A stretch of 64,000 nt of DNA, from the NCBI RefSeq assembly GCF_002160815.1, contig NZ_NFLH01000009.1, forward strand, positions 1-64,000. Direction: 5' to 3'. The stretch's first letter is position 1. Every line of letters starts with the position of its first letter. Source of the stretch: Massilimicrobiota sp. An134 (lineage in GTDB: Bacteria; Bacillota_I; Bacilli_A; Erysipelotrichales; Coprobacillaceae). A model generated the notes under the pieces. It saw only the letters and a program-made list of their open reading frames with translations. It did not search any database and was not told the origin of the DNA. The position numbers and the translations under genes were made by a program. This document shows positions 4,337 through 59,965 of this stretch, piece after piece.

Positions 4337-4855
4337 TTAAATTACAATACTTTTATTTTTAACGAAGATTTTCATCAACAATGGTGCCCCAATTAAATAG
4401 AAAAAGAAGTTTCCAACTGCATGAAAAGTATCAAATAATAATCCCGATATATAATAAACAATAAATAGTGATGGTCCACCCACAACAAATTTATCTAATG
4501 ATACAATAAAACCAAAAACATATCCCATCAAAAAAGCAAATATAGCCATAACTAAAATATGTGGTTGTTTATGTATTTTCTTAAAAAAATCCATTAAACA
4601 TTGCGTCAATAAACAAATCACAATCCATGCTAAAATCTGAAAAATTGTCCAAATTCCCATACCTAAATAGATATTAGAAACAAGTGTTGTCACAATCGTT
4701 AATTTAATACCAAATGCCAAACCAAAAATCATCACTGAAATAATGATAATGGATGTTACGGGCTTAATATTAGGTAATGCCTGTAAAGCTATACGTGATG
4801 CTATATTGACAGCCGCTAATATTCCAATCAAACTGATTTCTTTAACTTTATCCAT
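4337..4855 (-). CDS. ECF transporter S component, probably for cobalamin
   Basis: This is a substrate-binding membrane subunit of an energy-coupling-factor (ECF) importer. The protein (172 aa) is almost entirely hydrophobic with about five or six helices, and its opening KEISLIGILAAVNIASRIAL has the alanine-rich first-helix look of S components. It lacks an ATPase and a T subunit nearby, so it would use the shared ECF module. I start it at ATG 4855, whose ATGGATAA overlaps the stop of the upstream gene by 8 bases, implying coupled translation; a longer in-frame start at 4888 lies inside that gene. Substrate assignment to vitamin B12 is inferred from the cobalamin riboswitch heading the operon and from the two partner proteins. 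Confidence 0.82.
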   Translation of the reverse strand: MDKVKEISLIGILAAVNIASRIALQALPNIKPVTSIIIISVMIFGLAFGIKLTIVTTLVSNIYLGMGIWTIFQILAWIVICLLTQCLMDFFKKIHKQPHILVMAIFAFLMGYVFGFIVSLDKFVVGGPSLFIVYYISGLLFDTFHAVGNFFFYLIGAPLLMKIFVKNKSIVI

Positions 4856-5573
4856 TTGTTGAATAGACCCATTCAACCTGATCACCATCTTTTAAAGTGC
4901 AAGCACCTGCACTCGTTTGAGGATATGTTCCATTAACCTTATATTTCCATCCTGACATGCCACCATAATCAAATTCCATAAGTCCGTTGATCCCTTTCAC
5001 ATAAATGGCTTGCCCAATTCCTGATGTACTCACAGGCATTTCATAATTATCTGCTAATATTTTTAAAGCATCATAAGCACTTATACCTTCTTCATATTCT
5101 ATATAATCTTGTGCCATAACACCATCAACACCAGTGATTGTCACATAAACAGATGCAATTTCTTCTTCAATATAAACTTCTTCCTCTTTTTCAGGTACAT
5201 CCTCTACTTGTGTTTGGTGAGATGTAGATGTTTCCTGATTGGAAGTTGTTGTTTGTTTCTGTTGTGTTGATTGAGATTCAGGCTTTTGTTTTGATGACTG
5301 TTTTTTTTCTTGCTGAGAAACTTGATTCACTTGTTCTTCTTTTTTTTCTTGTTGAGAAGTTTGATTCTCTTGTTCCTCTTTTTTCTCTTGGGAAACTTCC
5401 TCTTTTTGTTTCGAATCTGTCATTTCTTGTTGAACTTGATTTTCTGTATTTTCAGTCACTTGTTTTGCTGACTGACTTGGTGAAGCAAAGTAGGCATGAT
5501 AAATGCCTACTCCACCTATTAATAAAAAACATACAACAACAAAAATGAGCGTATATTTCTTTGTTTTATTCAA
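4848..5573 (-). CDS. Membrane-anchored DUF4430 (transcobalamin beta-domain-like) protein
   Basis: This 241-aa surface protein has one N-terminal membrane helix (about 8-30), a long low-complexity linker rich in Gln, Lys, Glu and Ser (about 31-140, repeating QQEKKEEQ-type units), and a C-terminal DUF4430 domain (about 145-241). Visible domain marks are YITGVDG-type strands, SAYDALKILADNY, YVKGINGL, GMSGWKYKVNG and LKDGDQVEWVYS. DUF4430 is related to the C-terminal beta domain of animal intrinsic factor/transcobalamin. It starts at TTG 5573, overlapping the upstream stop (TTGAATAA), with AAAGGAAG upstream. The linker would hold the domain away from the membrane, through the wall, near the S component. 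A role in catching cobalamin is inferred. Confidence 0.8.
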   Translation of the reverse strand: MNKTKKYTLIFVVVCFLLIGGVGIYHAYFASPSQSAKQVTENTENQVQQEMTDSKQKEEVSQEKKEEQENQTSQQEKKEEQVNQVSQQEKKQSSKQKPESQSTQQKQTTTSNQETSTSHQTQVEDVPEKEEEVYIEEEIASVYVTITGVDGVMAQDYIEYEEGISAYDALKILADNYEMPVSTSGIGQAIYVKGINGLMEFDYGGMSGWKYKVNGTYPQTSAGACTLKDGDQVEWVYSTNG

Positions 5574-6705
5574 GATACTGTCTTCCTTTCAATAGAAGTA
5601 TACCACTTCCAATAAATAATAAACTATATCCTATCAACCATGATGAATCATCTGTTTGAACCACATCAGCTTTTTGTGATGATGATTCTTCTTTTGTCTG
5701 ATTATCATTTTGCATTTCTGTCGAAGATGTTTCTTTATCTTCTTTAACTGAATCTTCTTCAACAGGTATTTCTGGTTCTTTTTCTATTTCGGTAACTTCA
5801 CCTAAAGCTAAGTATGCTTGATGGGCCTTTTGATAAACTGAACCATTATAATAGTATCCTATTGTTTGTACACCTTGTACAGTTGCAAGCAAATTATATT
5901 GCCCTTCTCCTGTAAATGATGACCAAAAACTTCCATCAGAGTTTTGGAAAGATAATAAGACATCATATGGATTATGTTCATTTTGATTATATGTTCCGGC
6001 TTTCACACCAGCACTATCATATGTTAATAATCCCGCCAGTACACATGCCTGCGTATTAGCATCTGCACCATATCCATACATATCAAATCCAGCATCCTCT
6101 TTTTGATATGATAAAATATATGTCATAGCCTGTTGAATAGTTGGCTGATATTTCTCTTGATTAACTAAACTCAAAGCTTCTATTGCCCATCCTGTGACAG
6201 CAAGATCTTCATAACCTCCAGCATATGTAAATGCTCCATTATCTTGAATCATAGAAGCTAGATAATCTGCGGCTAATTCTTGTTTATCTGAGCCTACAAT
6301 ATATAAAGCATCTACACAAAAAATCTGATTATTTGAACCAAAACCATTCTCATTTTCAAAATGAACAGCTCCATCACTTTGAATTGCTGATTCTAATAAT
6401 TCAACATAGTTGACCCCGTTATAATTTCTAGGATCATTTCCATGTAAAGTTAAAACTATAATTGTTTTCGCAACATTTGATGCTGTATCTGTTGCAAGAA
6501 GTTCTTCAGGTATAACCTTCTGATCCGTTTCTACTCCAACTGATTCACTCGCAATGATTTCATCAACTGATTGAAACGCGCTTAAATTTTGAAAATAATT
6601 TTTTGCTAATGTATAGCTTTCATCATAAGTAAGTGCAGCTATTGGAAAAATATTTCCCATCACCAACATTAGCATAACCAATAAACATGTAAAAATTTTC
6701 TTCAT
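5566..6705 (-). CDS. Secreted, C-anchored alpha/alpha-toroid protein (intrinsic-factor alpha-domain-like)
   Basis: The 379-aa product has a signal peptide (about 1-24), a helical repeat region (about 30-305) resembling prenyltransferase/terpene-cyclase toroids, an acidic Glu/Ser/Thr/Lys linker (about 305-350), and a C-terminal membrane helix ending in KGRQYLE with no LPXTG motif. Repeat units show lines such as NGFGSNNQIFCVDALYIVG, GAFTYAGGYEDLAVTGWAIEAL and AGFDMYGYGADANTQACVLAGL. This alpha6/alpha6-type fold is also the N-terminal half of intrinsic factor and transcobalamin. I use ATG 6705 because GAGGAGG lies five bases upstream; an earlier ATG at 6741 falls in the riboswitch region. First gene of the B12-riboswitch operon. 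Confidence 0.82.
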   Translation of the reverse strand: MKKIFTCLLVMLMLVMGNIFPIAALTYDESYTLAKNYFQNLSAFQSVDEIIASESVGVETDQKVIPEELLATDTASNVAKTIIVLTLHGNDPRNYNGVNYVELLESAIQSDGAVHFENENGFGSNNQIFCVDALYIVGSDKQELAADYLASMIQDNGAFTYAGGYEDLAVTGWAIEALSLVNQEKYQPTIQQAMTYILSYQKEDAGFDMYGYGADANTQACVLAGLLTYDSAGVKAGTYNQNEHNPYDVLLSFQNSDGSFWSSFTGEGQYNLLATVQGVQTIGYYYNGSVYQKAHQAYLALGEVTEIEKEPEIPVEEDSVKEDKETSSTEMQNDNQTKEESSSQKADVVQTDDSSWLIGYSLLFIGSGILLLKGRQYLE

Positions 6706-6734
6706 TTTGTCCTCCTCTTTTTCTAGACAAAAAC

Positions 6735-6752
6735 AGGACATCTCTGCCCTAG
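6735..6752 (-). terminator. Possible riboswitch terminator hairpin
   Basis: On the minus strand AGGGCA and TGTCCT pair around a GAGA loop and are followed by GTTTTTG. It lies between the cobalamin aptamer and the first gene's ribosome-binding site, so it could be the expression platform that stops transcription when B12 is plentiful. The stem is short (six pairs, one wobble). Confidence 0.45.
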
Positions 6753-6754
6753 AA

Positions 6755-6922
6755 TTGAAACTAGAACGACTTTATACTCCGTAAAGTGTATTCCAAGATG
6801 TTGGCATGTATTCCGGCTCAAGTTCTTTGTCTTTGCACCTTCCCAGTTGCCCAGTGGTTATATTACATTGACTCCCTTTCACGGCTGCGGGACAGCTCAG
6901 GATTCACACCTGCTTCCATTTT
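6755..6922 (-). promoter_or_regulatory. Cobalamin riboswitch
   Basis: The leader of the three-gene operon contains cobalamin-aptamer landmarks in order on the minus strand: GAAGCAGGTGTGAATCCTG, GCTGTCCCGCAGCCGTGA, GGGAGTCAATGT, CCACTGGGCAACTGGGAAGG, and a B12-box-like GAGCCGGAATACATGCC (6803-6819). Adenosyl- or related cobalamins bind this RNA and switch off the genes that follow. It ties the downstream toroid protein, DUF4430 protein and ECF S component to B12 supply. Confidence 0.93.
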
Positions 6923-50863: not shown

Positions 50864-53323
50864 CTATTCTTCTTCATTATCTTCAGTTTCTTCTTCAGAT
50901 TTATCAACAACTTCTACACTTGAAACAATTGATCCTTCAGCAACTTTAATTAATCTAACACCTTGAGTATTTCTTCCAGCTAATTTTACTTGTTCCATTG
51001 GAAGTCTAATCATAATACCTTCACTTGTCATAATTAATAAATCTTCATCACCATTAACAGCTCTTAAAGCTACCAATTGTCCTGTCTTTTCAGTCGTATT
51101 AATGGTTTTTACACCTTTACCACCACGATGTGATTCACGGTAATCTTCTATTGGAGACATCTTACCATAACCATTTTCACTTATAGCCATAATATATTGT
51201 CCTTCTCCATTTGTTGTCATACCCACAACATGACTACCATCTACATTAATACCTCTGACACCTGATGCTGTTCTACCCATTGGTCTGACATCATTTTCAT
51301 TAAATCTAATTAATTTTCCATTAGATGCTGCAACGAGAATTTCTTCATTTTCTTTTGTTAATTTCACAGCAACCAACTGATCTTCATCTTTTAAATTAAT
51401 CGCAATCTTACCAGACTGTCTAATATTTTTAAATTCTTCAATAGAAGTTTTCTTAACTAAACCATTTAATGTCACAAAGAATAGATATAGATTCTTATCT
51501 TCATCAATATCATCTTTATCAATAGAAATCATAGATTTAACACTTTCATCTTTATCTAGATTTAATAAATTAACAACAGGTAATCCTTTAGCAGTTCTAC
51601 CAAATTCAGGAATATTATATCCTTTTAAACGATAGACTTTACCAAAGTTTGTAAAGAATAATAAATCATCATGAGTACTCATATGAATAAGAGCATCCAC
51701 AATATCATCCTCATTGGTTCCCATACCTTTGATACCTCTACCACCTCTATTTTGTGTTTTATAAGTATCAACAGGCATACGTTTGACATATCCATTAGAA
51801 GTTAAGGAAATAATAACATCTTCGACTGGAATTAAATCTTCATCTTCTAAATCAAATGTTCCTTGAATAATTTCAGTTCTTCTCTTATCAGCAAATTTAG
51901 CTTTAATTTCTAATAATTCTTTTTCAATAATTTCTAATATTCTTTCTCTTTTTGCAAGAATATCTTTTAAATCAGCAATCAATTCTAATAATTGATTTAA
52001 TTCATTTTCAATCTTTTCTCTTTCCAAACCAGCTAATCTTTGAAGCTGCATTTCTCTGATTGCTTTTGCTTGTCGATCAGACATATCAAATTCATCCATC
52101 AATCTCTGTTGAATAATTTCTGTTGTTCGTGATGAACGAATGAGTTCAATAATAGCATCAATCTGATCTAATGCTCTTTTTAAACCATCTAAAATATGAG
52201 CACGATCTTCAGCTTTCTTTAAATCATAAGCTGTTCTTCTTCTAATCACTTCTTCTTGATGATCAAGATAGTAAGTAATCATTTGTTTTAAATTTAAAGT
52301 TTGAGGTTGATTATTTACTAAAGCAATAGAATTGACACCAAATGTTGTCTGTAAAGCTGTTAATTTAAATAACTGATTTAAAATAACTTCTGGTTGAACA
52401 TCTTTACGAAGTTCAATCATAATACGAATACCTTCACGGTTAGATTCATCACGTATTTCTGTAATACCTTCAATACGTTTTTCTTTAACATGTTCAGCCA
52501 TTTTTTCAATTAAACGAGCTTTATTGACCATATATGGTATTTCAGTAACAACAATAGCTTTTTTACCACCATGAATATCAATAATATCCGTTTTCGCTCT
52601 CATGACAATTAAGCCATTACCAGTTTCATAAGCTTTTTTAATCGCTGATTTACCTAAAATATAAGCTCCTGTTGGAAAATCAGGTCCCTGAATATAATTT
52701 TCCATTAATTCTAGAATCGTAATATCAGGATTATGAGAAACAGCCAATATGGCATCAATGACTTCACCTAAATTATGAGGTGGAATATTTGTAGCCATAC
52801 CAACCGCAATTCCTGTTGTCCCATTGACTAATAAGTTAGGGAAACGTGATGGCATAACTTCTGGTTCTGATTCTTCACCATCATAGTTAGGAATAAAATT
52901 AACTGTATCTTTATTAATATCTCTCACCATTTCCATAGAAATCTTAGACATTCTGGCTTCAGTATAACGTTGTGCCGCAGCGCCATCACCATCAATAGAA
53001 CCAAAGTTTCCATGACCGTCTACTAACATATAACGATAACTGAAATCCTGTGCCATACGAACTAAAGCTTCATAGATTGAAGAGTCACCATGAGGATGGT
53101 ATTTCCCCATAACTTCCCCAACAATACGCGCTGATTTCTTATATGGTTTATCACTATAACATCCAAGTTCATTCATTCCATGCACAATTCTTCTTTGAAC
53201 AGGCTTTAATCCATCTCTCACATCTGGTAAAGCTCTTTGAACAATAACTGACATGGCATAATTGATAAAGGATTGTTTCATTTCTTTTGTTAATGATCTT
53301 TTCTTAATTCCACGTTCTTCCAT
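50864..53323 (-). CDS. gyrA: DNA gyrase subunit A
   Basis: GyrA cuts and rejoins DNA to add negative supercoils. The 819-aa protein has the active-site tyrosine in [11 protein letters not shown], the quinolone region [20 protein letters not shown] (Ser and Glu at the usual resistance sites, so not a resistant allele by these residues) and the six-bladed C-terminal domain with the GyrA-box-like [11 protein letters not shown]. It follows gyrB with a 15-base gap, and ends in an acidic tail (EETEDNEEE). Confidence 0.97.
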
Positions 53324-53338
53324 TTTTTCTCTCCTTTA

Positions 53339-56346
<3,008 letters not shown>

Positions 56347-56360
<14 letters not shown>

Positions 56361-56565
56361 TAATGATTAGATATTCTTGTCCATCAAAAGAAACAATATC
56401 CTGATGATAGAGCTTTTTCCCACGTCTTGTTTCTACTTCACCATTGACAAGAACCAGTCCATCACTAATGACTAATTTAGCTTCAGCTCCACTACTTACA
56501 GCATCAGCTAATTTAAGTAATTGTCCTAAAGTAATATACTCACTATGAATTGTAACTTCTTTCAT
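56347..56565 (-). CDS. S4-domain RNA-binding protein YaaA
   Basis: The 72-aa protein is a single S4 RNA-binding domain (YITLGQLLKLADAVSSGAEA, VNGEVETRRGKKLYHQDIV). It sits between dnaN and recF in nearly all Firmicutes and is thought to act on the ribosome. ATG 56565 follows GGGTGAT; an earlier in-frame ATG at 56580 is possible. Confidence 0.93.
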
Positions 56566-56712
56566 ATATTTATCACCCATACTTTCATAACCTGAACTAT
56601 TATATCACAAAAACATCAAAAATGATAGTTTTTATGGCTTATATTCAATATTTATAAAAAAAGTGATAAATCTCATTTTTATATAAAAACCTCTTATAAG
56701 CTAAATATAAGC

Positions 56713-56749
56713 TAAAAAATGATATATAGTCTTTTTGACTACATATCAT
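56713..56749 (-). terminator. Terminator after the remnant next to dnaN
   Basis: ATGATATGTAGTC and GACTATATATCAT pair on the minus strand (with one wobble), followed by T6. It overlaps the last codons of the remnant reading frame. Confidence 0.8.
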
Positions 56750-56918
56750 CTTTTAATGTTTCTATAATATTCTGTTTTCTAAAACGATTTCATCCTAATT
56801 TAAATGTTAAAATCATCACTATCATCATCACAATTAAATGATAACCATTTTCTCTTAAATAAGAATTTAAATGCTTAACGATTTGTAAATCATCTTCAAC
56901 CAGTAAAATTTTTTCCAT
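56739..56918 (-). pseudogene. Fusion scar: response-regulator start joined to ABC-permease end
   Basis: From ATG 56918 the frame gives MEKILLVEDDLQIVKHLNSY, a clear response-regulator N-terminus, but after about 28 residues it turns into hydrophobic and then basic text (LTFKLG, a TGA, NRFRKQNIIETLKDDM) resembling the C-terminal end of an FtsX/BceB-like ABC permease. This looks like the outcome of one large deletion across a BceRSAB-type (peptide-antibiotic sensing and export) locus, leaving its first gene's start and its last gene's end. GGTGGTATT precedes the ATG, and a terminator follows. Family reading of the tail is tentative. Confidence 0.6.
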
Positions 56919-56969
56919 AATACCACCATTCAAATTATAACAAAAAAAGCTAATCGTGAATAGATTAGC

Positions 56970-58073
56970 TTAATAAGTTCTCACAGGTAAAACCAATTGA
57001 ATAATATCTTCTCTTTCAAAGTCTTTAATAATAAATGGTTTCATTTCACCAGTAAATAAGACTCTCACTTTTTGTCCATTAATACTCTTAATAGCATCAG
57101 TTAAATATCTGGCACTAAATGAAATTTTTAAAGGCTCACCTTTATAGAAAGCTCTAGATAAGTTTTCTTCTACTGACCCAATTTCTTGAGAGAATGAAGA
57201 TAAGATCACTGTATCCTGATTCATTGTGAGTTTAACGATATTTGTTTGTTCATTTGTCAGTAATGATGCTCTATCAATAGAATTTAATAAACTTGTGCTA
57301 TCAATACTCATAGAGTAATCAAAACTATCAGGAATTAAACGACTTGTATCAGGGAAAGTTCCATCAATTAATCTTGTTTGAATTAAAACATGATCAAAAA
57401 CAAATAAAACTTTACGATCAGATACATATAAATCAATCAGTTCATCTTTTTCAATAATACGGCTGATTTCAATTAAACTCTTTTTAGGAATAATAATATT
57501 AAATGAAATATCAGAATCAATATTTAAAATACGTTTTGCTAAACGATAACTATCTGTCGCAATACATTCTAAAACATGATCTTTAGCTTTGAAGTTAACT
57601 CCTGTTAAAACAGGTCTTGTTTCTTTTTCACTTGTCGCAAATGAAGTTTGTTCAATGGCTTCTTTTAAATCAATAGATTTCATCTGTAAATTAACACCTG
57701 TTTTATTTAAATCAATACGAGGATAATCAATATAAGATGTTCCATTTAAATCAAAACGAGAGTTAGCTCCTTCAATTCTTGTAAGTGTTCCATCTACAAT
57801 AAAAATATGTACATCTTCAGAATCAATTTTTTTAATAATTTCTAATATATATTTAGATGATAAAACAACACTACCAGGTTCAATAATATCAATATGATCT
57901 TGAATACTTGTTTGAATTGTAATATCACTATCACTACCAGTTAAAATAAGTTCATCTTCTTTTAAATCAAATTTAATACCAGTTAAAACAGGTAATGGAC
58001 TTTTTATAGAAACAGCTCTTGAAACTTTAGTTAGAGCATTCAATAATTCCAATCTTTTAATCTTAAAATTCAT
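56970..58073 (-). CDS. dnaN: DNA polymerase III beta subunit (sliding clamp)
   Basis: DnaN is the ring that holds the replicative polymerase on DNA. The 367-aa protein has three clamp domains and begins MNFKIKRLELLNALTKVSRA; SIKSPLPVLTGIKFDL and the matching RPVLTGVNFKAKDHVLECIA of domain 2 are typical. It lies downstream of dnaA, with DnaA boxes in between. Confidence 0.97.
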   Translation of the reverse strand: MNFKIKRLELLNALTKVSRAVSIKSPLPVLTGIKFDLKEDELILTGSDSDITIQTSIQDHIDIIEPGSVVLSSKYILEIIKKIDSEDVHIFIVDGTLTRIEGANSRFDLNGTSYIDYPRIDLNKTGVNLQMKSIDLKEAIEQTSFATSEKETRPVLTGVNFKAKDHVLECIATDSYRLAKRILNIDSDISFNIIIPKKSLIEISRIIEKDELIDLYVSDRKVLFVFDHVLIQTRLIDGTFPDTSRLIPDSFDYSMSIDSTSLLNSIDRASLLTNEQTNIVKLTMNQDTVILSSFSQEIGSVEENLSRAFYKGEPLKISFSARYLTDAIKSINGQKVRVLFTGEMKPFIIKDFEREDIIQLVLPVRTY

Positions 58074-58187
58074 AAATGATCTCCTTTATATTTTATTATT
58101 TAAATAATAACATAATAATAATATTGTGCACAATATGCATAAGTGAAAAAAAGTGACGTTTTATTCATTGTTTTTTTATTTTTATGA

Positions 58188-58217
58188 TGTGCATAAGTTG
58201 TGGATAAGTGTGCATAA
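58188..58217. promoter_or_regulatory. Three DnaA boxes between dnaA and dnaN
   Basis: TGTGCATAA (58188-58196), TGTGGATAA (58199-58207, the perfect consensus in reverse) and TGTGCATAA (58209-58217) lie in the same direction with 2- and 1-base gaps, just after the dnaA stop. They form part of a two-part origin with the cluster upstream of dnaA. Confidence 0.85.
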
Positions 58218-58220
58218 CTT

Positions 58221-59564
58221 TTACACAAGTTTCTTTTTAATATCTTGAATAGCTTGACGATAATTCATATCTTTTTCTAATTTCTGTTGAACTTTATGAC
58301 AAGCTTTCATGACAGTTGAATGATCTCTTCCACCAAATTCATGACCAATTTGAATGAATGAAATATCTTCAATGAGTTCTCTGACTAAATACATGGCAAT
58401 ATGTCTTGCGACAATAATACTAGATGTTCTTGATTTAGAATTAATTTGAGCAACTGTTAAATTATAATAATCAGCAACACATTTCTTTATATTTGAAACA
58501 GTTAATTCTTTTTTCTGTGTTGGCTGACTATAAGAATCACTAAAGGCTTCTAAGGCAAAATTCAAGTCAATAATATCTAATTTTTTACCACATATGAGCT
58601 TATAAAATAATAATCTTTTTAAACTTCCTTCTAGTTCTCTGACATCAGTATTAAAATGAGTGGCAATAAAGTCTAAAACTTCTTCCGTTATTGGATAATC
58701 AACATTTTCAATTTCTATTTTCTTTCTTAAAATGGCTTTAGCCGTTTCAAATTCAGGTGTATCAATACTTACTGTTAAACCAGATGAAAATCGACTGACT
58801 AATCGACTTTCCATTCCCTTTAGATCACGTGGCGGTTTATCTGAAGTAATGACAATCTGTTTTTTATTACTAATTAAAGTATTAAAAATGTTGAAAAAGA
58901 TCTCACTTGATGATTCTTTTGTAGCCATGAATTGAATATCATCTATTAATAATATATCCATTTGACGATATTTATAGTTAAATTCATCCATTGCATGGTT
59001 AGCTAATGATTGAATATATTCATTCACAAAGTTCTCACTTGTTGTAAATAAAACATTTATAGATGGATCACGTTTTTTAGCATAATTTCCAATAGCATTT
59101 AATAAATGTGTTTTTCCTAATCCTGAATTACTATGAATAAATAATGGACTATAAGAAATACCAGGTTTCATAGCAACCGCTAAAGATGCATTTTGAGCAA
59201 TTCTATTACTGTTTCCAATAACGAAATTATCAAAAGTCAAATCAGGATTTAAGTGATCATCAAAATGTAATAAATGTTCTTGTTTTGCATGACTTTGTTT
59301 AAAATCTTCTTCAGTCATTAAATGTAGCTGATAGTGTCCATTTGTGACAGTATTGTAGATTTCCTGTAAATGCGTTAAATAAGGTTCTACAACATCTAAG
59401 CTCCATTTTGTATCAATGGTGATTGTCACGACACTTCCTACAATGTCTTTGATTTCTAAGGTAGTGAAAAAAGAATCAAAAGTAATTTTATCTAATCCAT
59501 AATCATCAAGTTTTCCTTGGAATAAACTTAAAGTTTTTTGCCAGTTCATATCTAAATTGTTCAT
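58221..59564 (-). CDS. dnaA: Chromosomal replication initiator DnaA
   Basis: DnaA binds the origin boxes and opens the duplex. The 447-aa protein has an N-terminal domain I (about 1-85), a short linker, the AAA+ domain (about 105-320) with HSNSGLGKTHLLNAIGNYA and LLIDDIQFMA, and the C-terminal box-binding helix-turn-helix with GGRDHSTVMKACHKV. I use ATG 59564, with GGAG/GGTG upstream; the longer frame is not supported. Confidence 0.97.
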   Translation of the reverse strand: MNNLDMNWQKTLSLFQGKLDDYGLDKITFDSFFTTLEIKDIVGSVVTITIDTKWSLDVVEPYLTHLQEIYNTVTNGHYQLHLMTEEDFKQSHAKQEHLLHFDDHLNPDLTFDNFVIGNSNRIAQNASLAVAMKPGISYSPLFIHSNSGLGKTHLLNAIGNYAKKRDPSINVLFTTSENFVNEYIQSLANHAMDEFNYKYRQMDILLIDDIQFMATKESSSEIFFNIFNTLISNKKQIVITSDKPPRDLKGMESRLVSRFSSGLTVSIDTPEFETAKAILRKKIEIENVDYPITEEVLDFIATHFNTDVRELEGSLKRLLFYKLICGKKLDIIDLNFALEAFSDSYSQPTQKKELTVSNIKKCVADYYNLTVAQINSKSRTSSIIVARHIAMYLVRELIEDISFIQIGHEFGGRDHSTVMKACHKVQQKLEKDMNYRQAIQDIKKKLV

Positions 59565-59567
59565 TTT

Positions 59568-59965
59568 CACCATCTCCAAGACACATTATAAAGGAAAAAG
59601 TGAATAAATAGAAGATGAAAAAAAATATGCACAAGTTATTCACATAGTTATGCACATCAAATTATATTGAATTGACGGGCTTTTTTTAGTTTTACACAAA
59701 TTTCATGATATCGAAATTGTGAATAAAAAGTTATGCTATGTGCATAATTGTGCACAAAATGATTTTATTTTTTTAATTCACATAAAAAGCAACAAATAAT
59801 GCACAAGAAAAATGACGATATAAGTGAATAAATGTAGAGTTATGCACAATTGTGAATAACTTTTAAGCGTTTGTGCATAAGTTGTGAATAGACGTAAATA
59901 CTCCTGATAAATGATATGCACAAATGAAAGTAAATAGAACTTTATCAGGAAAGAAAATGCTTGAA
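59568..59965. other. oriC: Replication origin (oriC) with DnaA-box cluster
   Basis: Between dnaA and rpmH, boxes of the form TTATNCACA occur on both strands: TTATTCACA (59636-59644), TTATGCACA (59648-59656), TGTGAATAA (59718-59726), TGTGCATAA (59739-59747), TTATGCACA (59840-59848), TGTGAATAA (59851-59859), TGTGCATAA (59872-59880) and a one-off TGTGAATAG (59883-59891). TGTGCACAA (59749-59757) is palindromic. The rest is very AT-rich. With the boxes after dnaA this gives a bipartite origin. The ORF on the minus strand here is spurious. Confidence 0.92.

Follow-up and report, generated by a model that had tools for sequence, protein, structure and literature searches.

The locus described here raises the question of whether a bacterium could catch vitamin B12 with the two halves of an animal B12 carrier, displayed as two separate surface proteins. 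Animal intrinsic factor, transcobalamin and haptocorrin consist of a toroid and a beta-grasp domain, with B12 sandwiched between them. The initial annotation proposed that a secreted toroid protein and a DUF4430 protein play these two parts and deliver B12 to an ECF importer. We analysed the locus within its window, by which we mean the whole stretch of 64,000 nucleotides from Massilimicrobiota sp. An134 (contig NZ_NFLH01000009.1, positions 1 to 64,000), together with 43 genomes of the family and with loci from the wider class.

All parts of the system are carried by the minus strand, in the order cobalamin riboswitch, toroid gene, DUF4430 gene and S-component gene, and neighbouring genes overlap (Table 1). 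The RF00174 aptamer clearly exceeds its curated threshold, lies upstream of B12-related genes and reaches slightly past position 6922, where the initial annotation had ended the locus. It is the only cobalamin riboswitch in the whole genome. The toroid and DUF4430 genes overlap by 8 nt, and the DUF4430 and S-component genes by either 8 nt (ATG 4855) or 41 nt (ATG 4888), the former start being conserved in the family alignment and the likelier of the two. These overlaps indicate one operon and transcript, and the arrangement initially read from the sequence, a single cobalamin riboswitch preceding three overlapping genes, was confirmed. Two hairpins are placed between the aptamer and the toroid gene, the first of the operon: a terminator-like hairpin with a T run and, according to folding, an alternative hairpin that overlaps it and covers the ribosome-binding site. 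The terminator scan of the region returned three sites, slightly more than the 1.2 +/- 1.1 expected in shuffled sequences, which is suggestive only of the terminator-like hairpin acting as the expression platform of the riboswitch. Elsewhere in the window, gyrA, gyrB, recF, dnaN and dnaA, as read from their translations, follow one another at positions 50864-59579, a row that places the window near the replication origin.

Table 1. Positions of the riboswitch, the candidate expression platform and the three genes within the window.
Feature	Position	Strand	Evidence
Cobalamin riboswitch aptamer RF00174	6964..6786	minus	cmscan 94.7 bits, E=2.7e-22, cut-off 31.5
Terminator-like hairpin with T run, candidate expression platform	6751-6734	minus	pattern scan
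Toroid gene, 379 aa	6705 (ATG)..5566 (stop end)	minus	AF2, Foldseek, family alignment
DUF4430 gene	5573 (TTG start)..4848	minus	PF14478 E=1.1e-15; family alignment
CbrT-family ECF S component, 172 aa	4855..4337 (alternative upstream ATG 4888)	minus	profile A3 vs 6FNP

The third gene identifies the type of importer. Its Pfam ECF_trnsprt match was below the cut-off (E=0.0062), and profile A3, made from the window protein together with 24 relatives, had 6FNP chain A as its sole match in the PDB (E=1.8e-26, 162 positions). This structure is ECF-CbrT of Lactobacillus delbrueckii, for which cobalamin binding at ~9 nM and transport of cobalamin and cobinamide were demonstrated (PMC5997447). This match places the third gene product among the cobalamin ECF S components of the CbrT family, in agreement with its original reading as an ECF-type S component. 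Since the genome of the window encodes a single EcfT (G000:C25) with adjoining EcfA genes, CbrT would share that ECF motor, and a shared ECF module is probably used here as in L. delbrueckii. The cbrT gene of L. delbrueckii, however, lies in a nrdJ-cbrS-cbrT-pduO cluster, and the available part of the transporter's description mentions no toroid or surface capture protein, unlike the operon studied here.

The first gene encodes a protein with a signal peptide, an alpha/alpha toroid spanning about residues 26-305, a linker and a C-terminal hydrophobic helix preceded by VQTDD. Its Pfam matches to prenyltransferase/squalene-cyclase toroids were weak and under the curated cut-offs. The AlphaFold2 model reached a pLDDT of 83.5 overall and ~95 over the toroid, and Foldseek matched it to farnesyltransferase and squalene-hopene cyclase, with transcobalamin at rank 12 (E=2.1e-4). 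The sequence profile was also nearest to terpene cyclases. The protein is predicted to have the alpha6/alpha6 fold of the transcobalamin/intrinsic factor family, and its equation with the toroid domain of the animal carriers stood as far as the fold is concerned. As modelled, the toroid is not specifically transcobalamin-like, prenyltransferases and terpene cyclases being the nearest solved structures. A role as terpene cyclase or prenyltransferase was rejected, because the DxDD motif of squalene-hopene-type cyclases is absent from the protein sequence and the protein is secreted.

In 22 of the 26 toroid family members, the C-terminal helix follows a [KEQDN]T-x-D motif, in many of them KTGD or ETGD, and the KTGD/ETGD type is common to toroid proteins and other surface proteins of these genomes. 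This motif and the two sortases found in the genome of the window make sortase anchoring of the toroid C-terminus plausible. VQTDD would then be a degenerate, possible sortase signal, and the C-terminus did not match the curated sortase-B signal srtB_target TIGR03063 (13.8 vs 18.15 bits). The initial annotation had described a secreted toroid held by its C-terminal helix; the signal peptide, the modelled toroid and the helix are all present, but the helix may be part of a sortase signal instead of a plain membrane anchor. In the four relatives without the motif, a different domain forms the C-terminus, and these proteins may be released from the cell.

The DUF4430 protein begins with a hydrophobic helix, which is followed by a linker of ~100 charged or polar residues and by a C-terminal DUF4430 (transcobalamin-type SLBB) domain at about residues 138-241, and so corresponds to the N-anchored protein on a long charged linker that had been proposed. 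Several DUF4430 relatives carry a lipobox at the N-terminus, where the window protein has the hydrophobic helix. The two separate proteins are predicted, as at first suggested, to be anchored from opposite ends, the toroid by its C-terminal end and the DUF4430 protein by its N-terminal end. When compared with the PDB by sequence alone, the DUF4430 profile found no transcobalamin, and a structural route via a fused relative was therefore used. Among class relatives, solo DUF4430 lipoproteins were observed at L142, L144, L145 and L147, the fetched stretches holding no toroid or CbrT-like gene.

Fused relatives are provided by many genomes of the class, in which DUF4430 is fused before the toroid in one lipoprotein, followed by a second, membrane-anchored DUF4430 protein and then by a CbrT-like S component. 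A cobalamin riboswitch was located upstream in 19 of the 20 class loci scanned, which are mostly fused, some having separate toroids. Profile comparisons related the toroid family of the window to the fused toroid with 98.7% probability and its DUF4430 to the fused DUF4430 more weakly, with 89%. For one fused relative, modelled with AlphaFold2 (pLDDT 85.9, pTM 0.81), the top two Foldseek matches were the beta domain of human transcobalamin in its apo and B12-bound forms; bacterial 3u7z, for which the fused family gave a sequence match as well, and full transcobalamin chains came next, and intrinsic factor and haptocorrin were lower. The natural fusions and this structural match support the pairing, suggesting that toroid and DUF4430 belong together. 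The DUF4430 protein of the window would accordingly carry a transcobalamin-type beta-grasp domain, the structural match having been obtained for the fused relative only, and the domain tree leaves both options for it, as counterpart of the fused or of the free DUF4430 of the relatives. Animal carriers have the same two folds as the system studied here, and the fused relative finds its best structural match in their beta domain, but they are single soluble chains with the toroid first and enter by receptor uptake, whereas two genes and an ECF importer are found here. The two domains in one chain with the toroid first, as in transcobalamin and intrinsic factor, were not encountered: the genes are separate here and the order is reversed in the fused relatives.

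The toroid gene was detected in 26 of the 43 family genomes, and HMM searches showed DUF4430 and S genes adjoining it in almost all and added two more, divergent toroid loci; conservation in 26 genomes rules out a chance arrangement. In at least 13 family genomes, ~80-100 nt separate the riboswitch from the toroid gene downstream of it. No cobalamin riboswitch was detected in six genomes (G009, G018, G019, G026, G030 and G031), where metH lies directly upstream of the toroid gene. In the five whose context is complete (L063, L067, L070, L071 and L072), a metF-metH-toroid-DUF4430-S run is present, and an Rfam scan upstream of these operons gave no riboswitch above threshold. MetH is the B12-dependent methionine synthase. 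Genes for the CobA corrinoid adenosyltransferase adjoin some loci. The B12-synthesis gene cbiD was absent from all 43 family genomes, and a B12-binding-domain protein, usually MetH, was present in 41 of them, the genome of the window having MetH; judging from this gene content, the bacterium needs B12 and probably cannot make it. MetH and the system tend to occur together (Fisher P=0.0006; P=0.02 when incomplete genomes are left aside; counts compiled by hand). The exceptions are G005 and G023, with MetH but no triad, and G029 (L068), which carries a complete triad with no B12-binding-domain protein detected and in which both halves appear secreted and unanchored.

The initial annotation took cobalamin riboswitches in relatives as a mark of the system and riboswitches of other vitamins as a sign against it. 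Co-occurrence of the three domains behind cobalamin riboswitches was seen across family and class, and scans of loci in the window, the family and the class gave no riboswitch of another vitamin. Another vitamin as ligand was rejected on this ground and because the S profile matches CbrT only. B12 is strongly supported as the ligand by the riboswitch, the CbrT-family S component, the metH operons, the adenosyltransferase neighbours and the lack of cbiD, and we regard it as very likely that the operon serves B12 acquisition.

The explanation that we consider likely as a whole is a B12-repressed scavenging operon whose split surface trap hands B12 to a CbrT-type importer. When B12 is scarce, the riboswitch would permit transcription or translation, as its type suggests. 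After secretion, the toroid protein would stay attached to the wall or membrane through its C-terminal end, and the DUF4430 protein, with its long flexible linker, would be fixed in the membrane through its N-terminal end. Both would most likely close over one B12, like the alpha and beta domains of transcobalamin and intrinsic factor. B12 would then be handed over to the CbrT-type S component and imported with the shared EcfA, EcfA' and EcfT of the cell, encoded elsewhere in the genome, and the imported B12 would go to MetH. Within this scheme, the toroid probably takes part in B12 capture, and the shared B12 clamp, drawn by analogy with the animal carriers, is moderately likely. Against this explanation, the toroid has prenyltransferases and cyclases as its best structural matches, the DUF4430 profile gave no transcobalamin match by sequence, G029 carries the triad with no B12-binding-domain protein detected, and the fused relatives have DUF4430 and then the toroid, the reverse of the animal carriers, plus an unfused second DUF4430 protein.

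The toroid and then the linker-borne DUF4430 carrier beside CbrT could instead each bind cobalamin in turn, with no common clamp. Such a relay fits the opposite anchoring and the long linker, and agrees with the retention, in fused relatives, of a second, membrane-anchored DUF4430 protein beside the S gene and with the binding of B12 by CbrT alone at ~9 nM (PMC5997447); the fused architecture and the transcobalamin precedent nevertheless favour one shared site, and we hold successive binding to be rather unlikely. It is less probable still that the handling of B12 is confined to the DUF4430 protein and the S component and that the toroid has another surface role, for example in binding cell-wall or mucus polymers or as a scaffold. 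The proximity of its profile to terpene cyclases, the beta-propeller that replaces it in some genomes, a fold fit for many roles, and a Lactobacillus DUF4430 protein that adjoins the B12-dependent rtpR gene (PMC9963975) point in that direction, but many relatives carry the toroid fused to DUF4430, and in most loci the toroid gene comes first after the riboswitch. The likelihoods given to the shared clamp, to successive binding and to another toroid role overlap, and mixed schemes are possible. Cobinamide, another corrinoid precursor or a distinct cobamide, instead of complete cobalamin, is an improbable ligand, and would change the ligand but not the type of system. CbrT also takes up cobinamide (PMC5997447), but genomes without cbiD would need salvage enzymes.

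The split surface trap may also have variants with another head. Within one genus, a toroid closes the operon DUF4430-EcfT-EcfAA'-S of five genomes (G034, G036-G038 and G040; L075, L078-L081), and a beta-propeller protein occupies the slot of the toroid in G035 and G041 (L084 4267-5703, L087 1830-3302). Downstream genes of both versions match where contigs permit comparison, the KTGD-type C-terminus is common to both, and the C-terminal linkers of one propeller and one toroid protein can be aligned (38% over 71 residues). The loci of G037, G038 and G040 gave no cobalamin riboswitch, even at a relaxed threshold. Another genus has a DUF4430-Ig-propeller protein in that position, and a single genome (G042) a longer propeller protein. 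At L088 (3973-6339), L089 (8416-10779) and L090 (8289-10646), DUF4430-like, Ig-like and propeller domains are combined in one surface chain, which sits behind a cobalamin-riboswitch ECF operon; the DUF4430-like domain has an HMM match in L088, of which the other two are close homologues. From these comparisons, toroid and propeller are apparent exchangeable heads between congeneric species. We tentatively propose, at somewhat less than even chances, that the toroid is an exchangeable B12-catching head and that toroid or propeller, with the same anchor and in the same slot, would each present B12 to the DUF4430 protein and CbrT. If true, two unrelated folds would be interchangeable surface traps for one vitamin importer. 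The propeller form recalls BtuG of Bacteroides, a B12-binding beta-propeller with demonstrated surface capture (PMC6143338), and the one propeller searched by sequence gave no match linking it to BtuG. BtuG shares the propeller fold with these variants and catches B12 at the surface ahead of an importer, as proposed here, but is an outer-membrane lipoprotein working with BtuB, unlike the system described here.

The concept of such scavengers is not new. Burroughs et al. 2007 (PMC1796856) predicted B12 scavenging by bacterial transcobalamin-like proteins with SLBB and toroid domains, noted that these frequently have CbiO/CbiQ genes as neighbours, as well as second SLBB proteins and fusions with beta-propellers, and suggested that the design came to animals from Gram-positive bacteria. 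The name 'additional lipoprotein component of putative cobalamin ECF transporter' has also been given to a Lactobacillus protein (PMC9963975). Thus, the initial annotation points the right way, and its statement that a split scavenging system is not well described needs correcting as to the general idea. Both the Burroughs proteins and those studied here combine, at the surface, an SLBB (DUF4430-type) domain and an alpha/alpha toroid; here, the two are separate and oppositely anchored and come with a CbrT-type S component and a cobalamin riboswitch, and the available text (PMC1796856) contains no mention of S components or riboswitches. An experimental test of that idea was not found in the searchable literature, in which few subscription journals are covered. 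The present analysis contributes the assignment to CbrT, the form that is split and anchored from opposite ends, the linkage to metH, a riboswitch that is widely conserved, and the exchange of toroid and propeller.

Competition for B12 shapes gut communities, and no experimental counterpart of BtuG surface capture in Gram-positive gut bacteria was found in the literature searched. The operon is a compact, testable candidate for B12 capture in a B12-needing gut lineage. If both proteins share one B12, the trap of the animal carrier would be at work as two bacterial surface proteins, which bears on the proposal of Burroughs et al.
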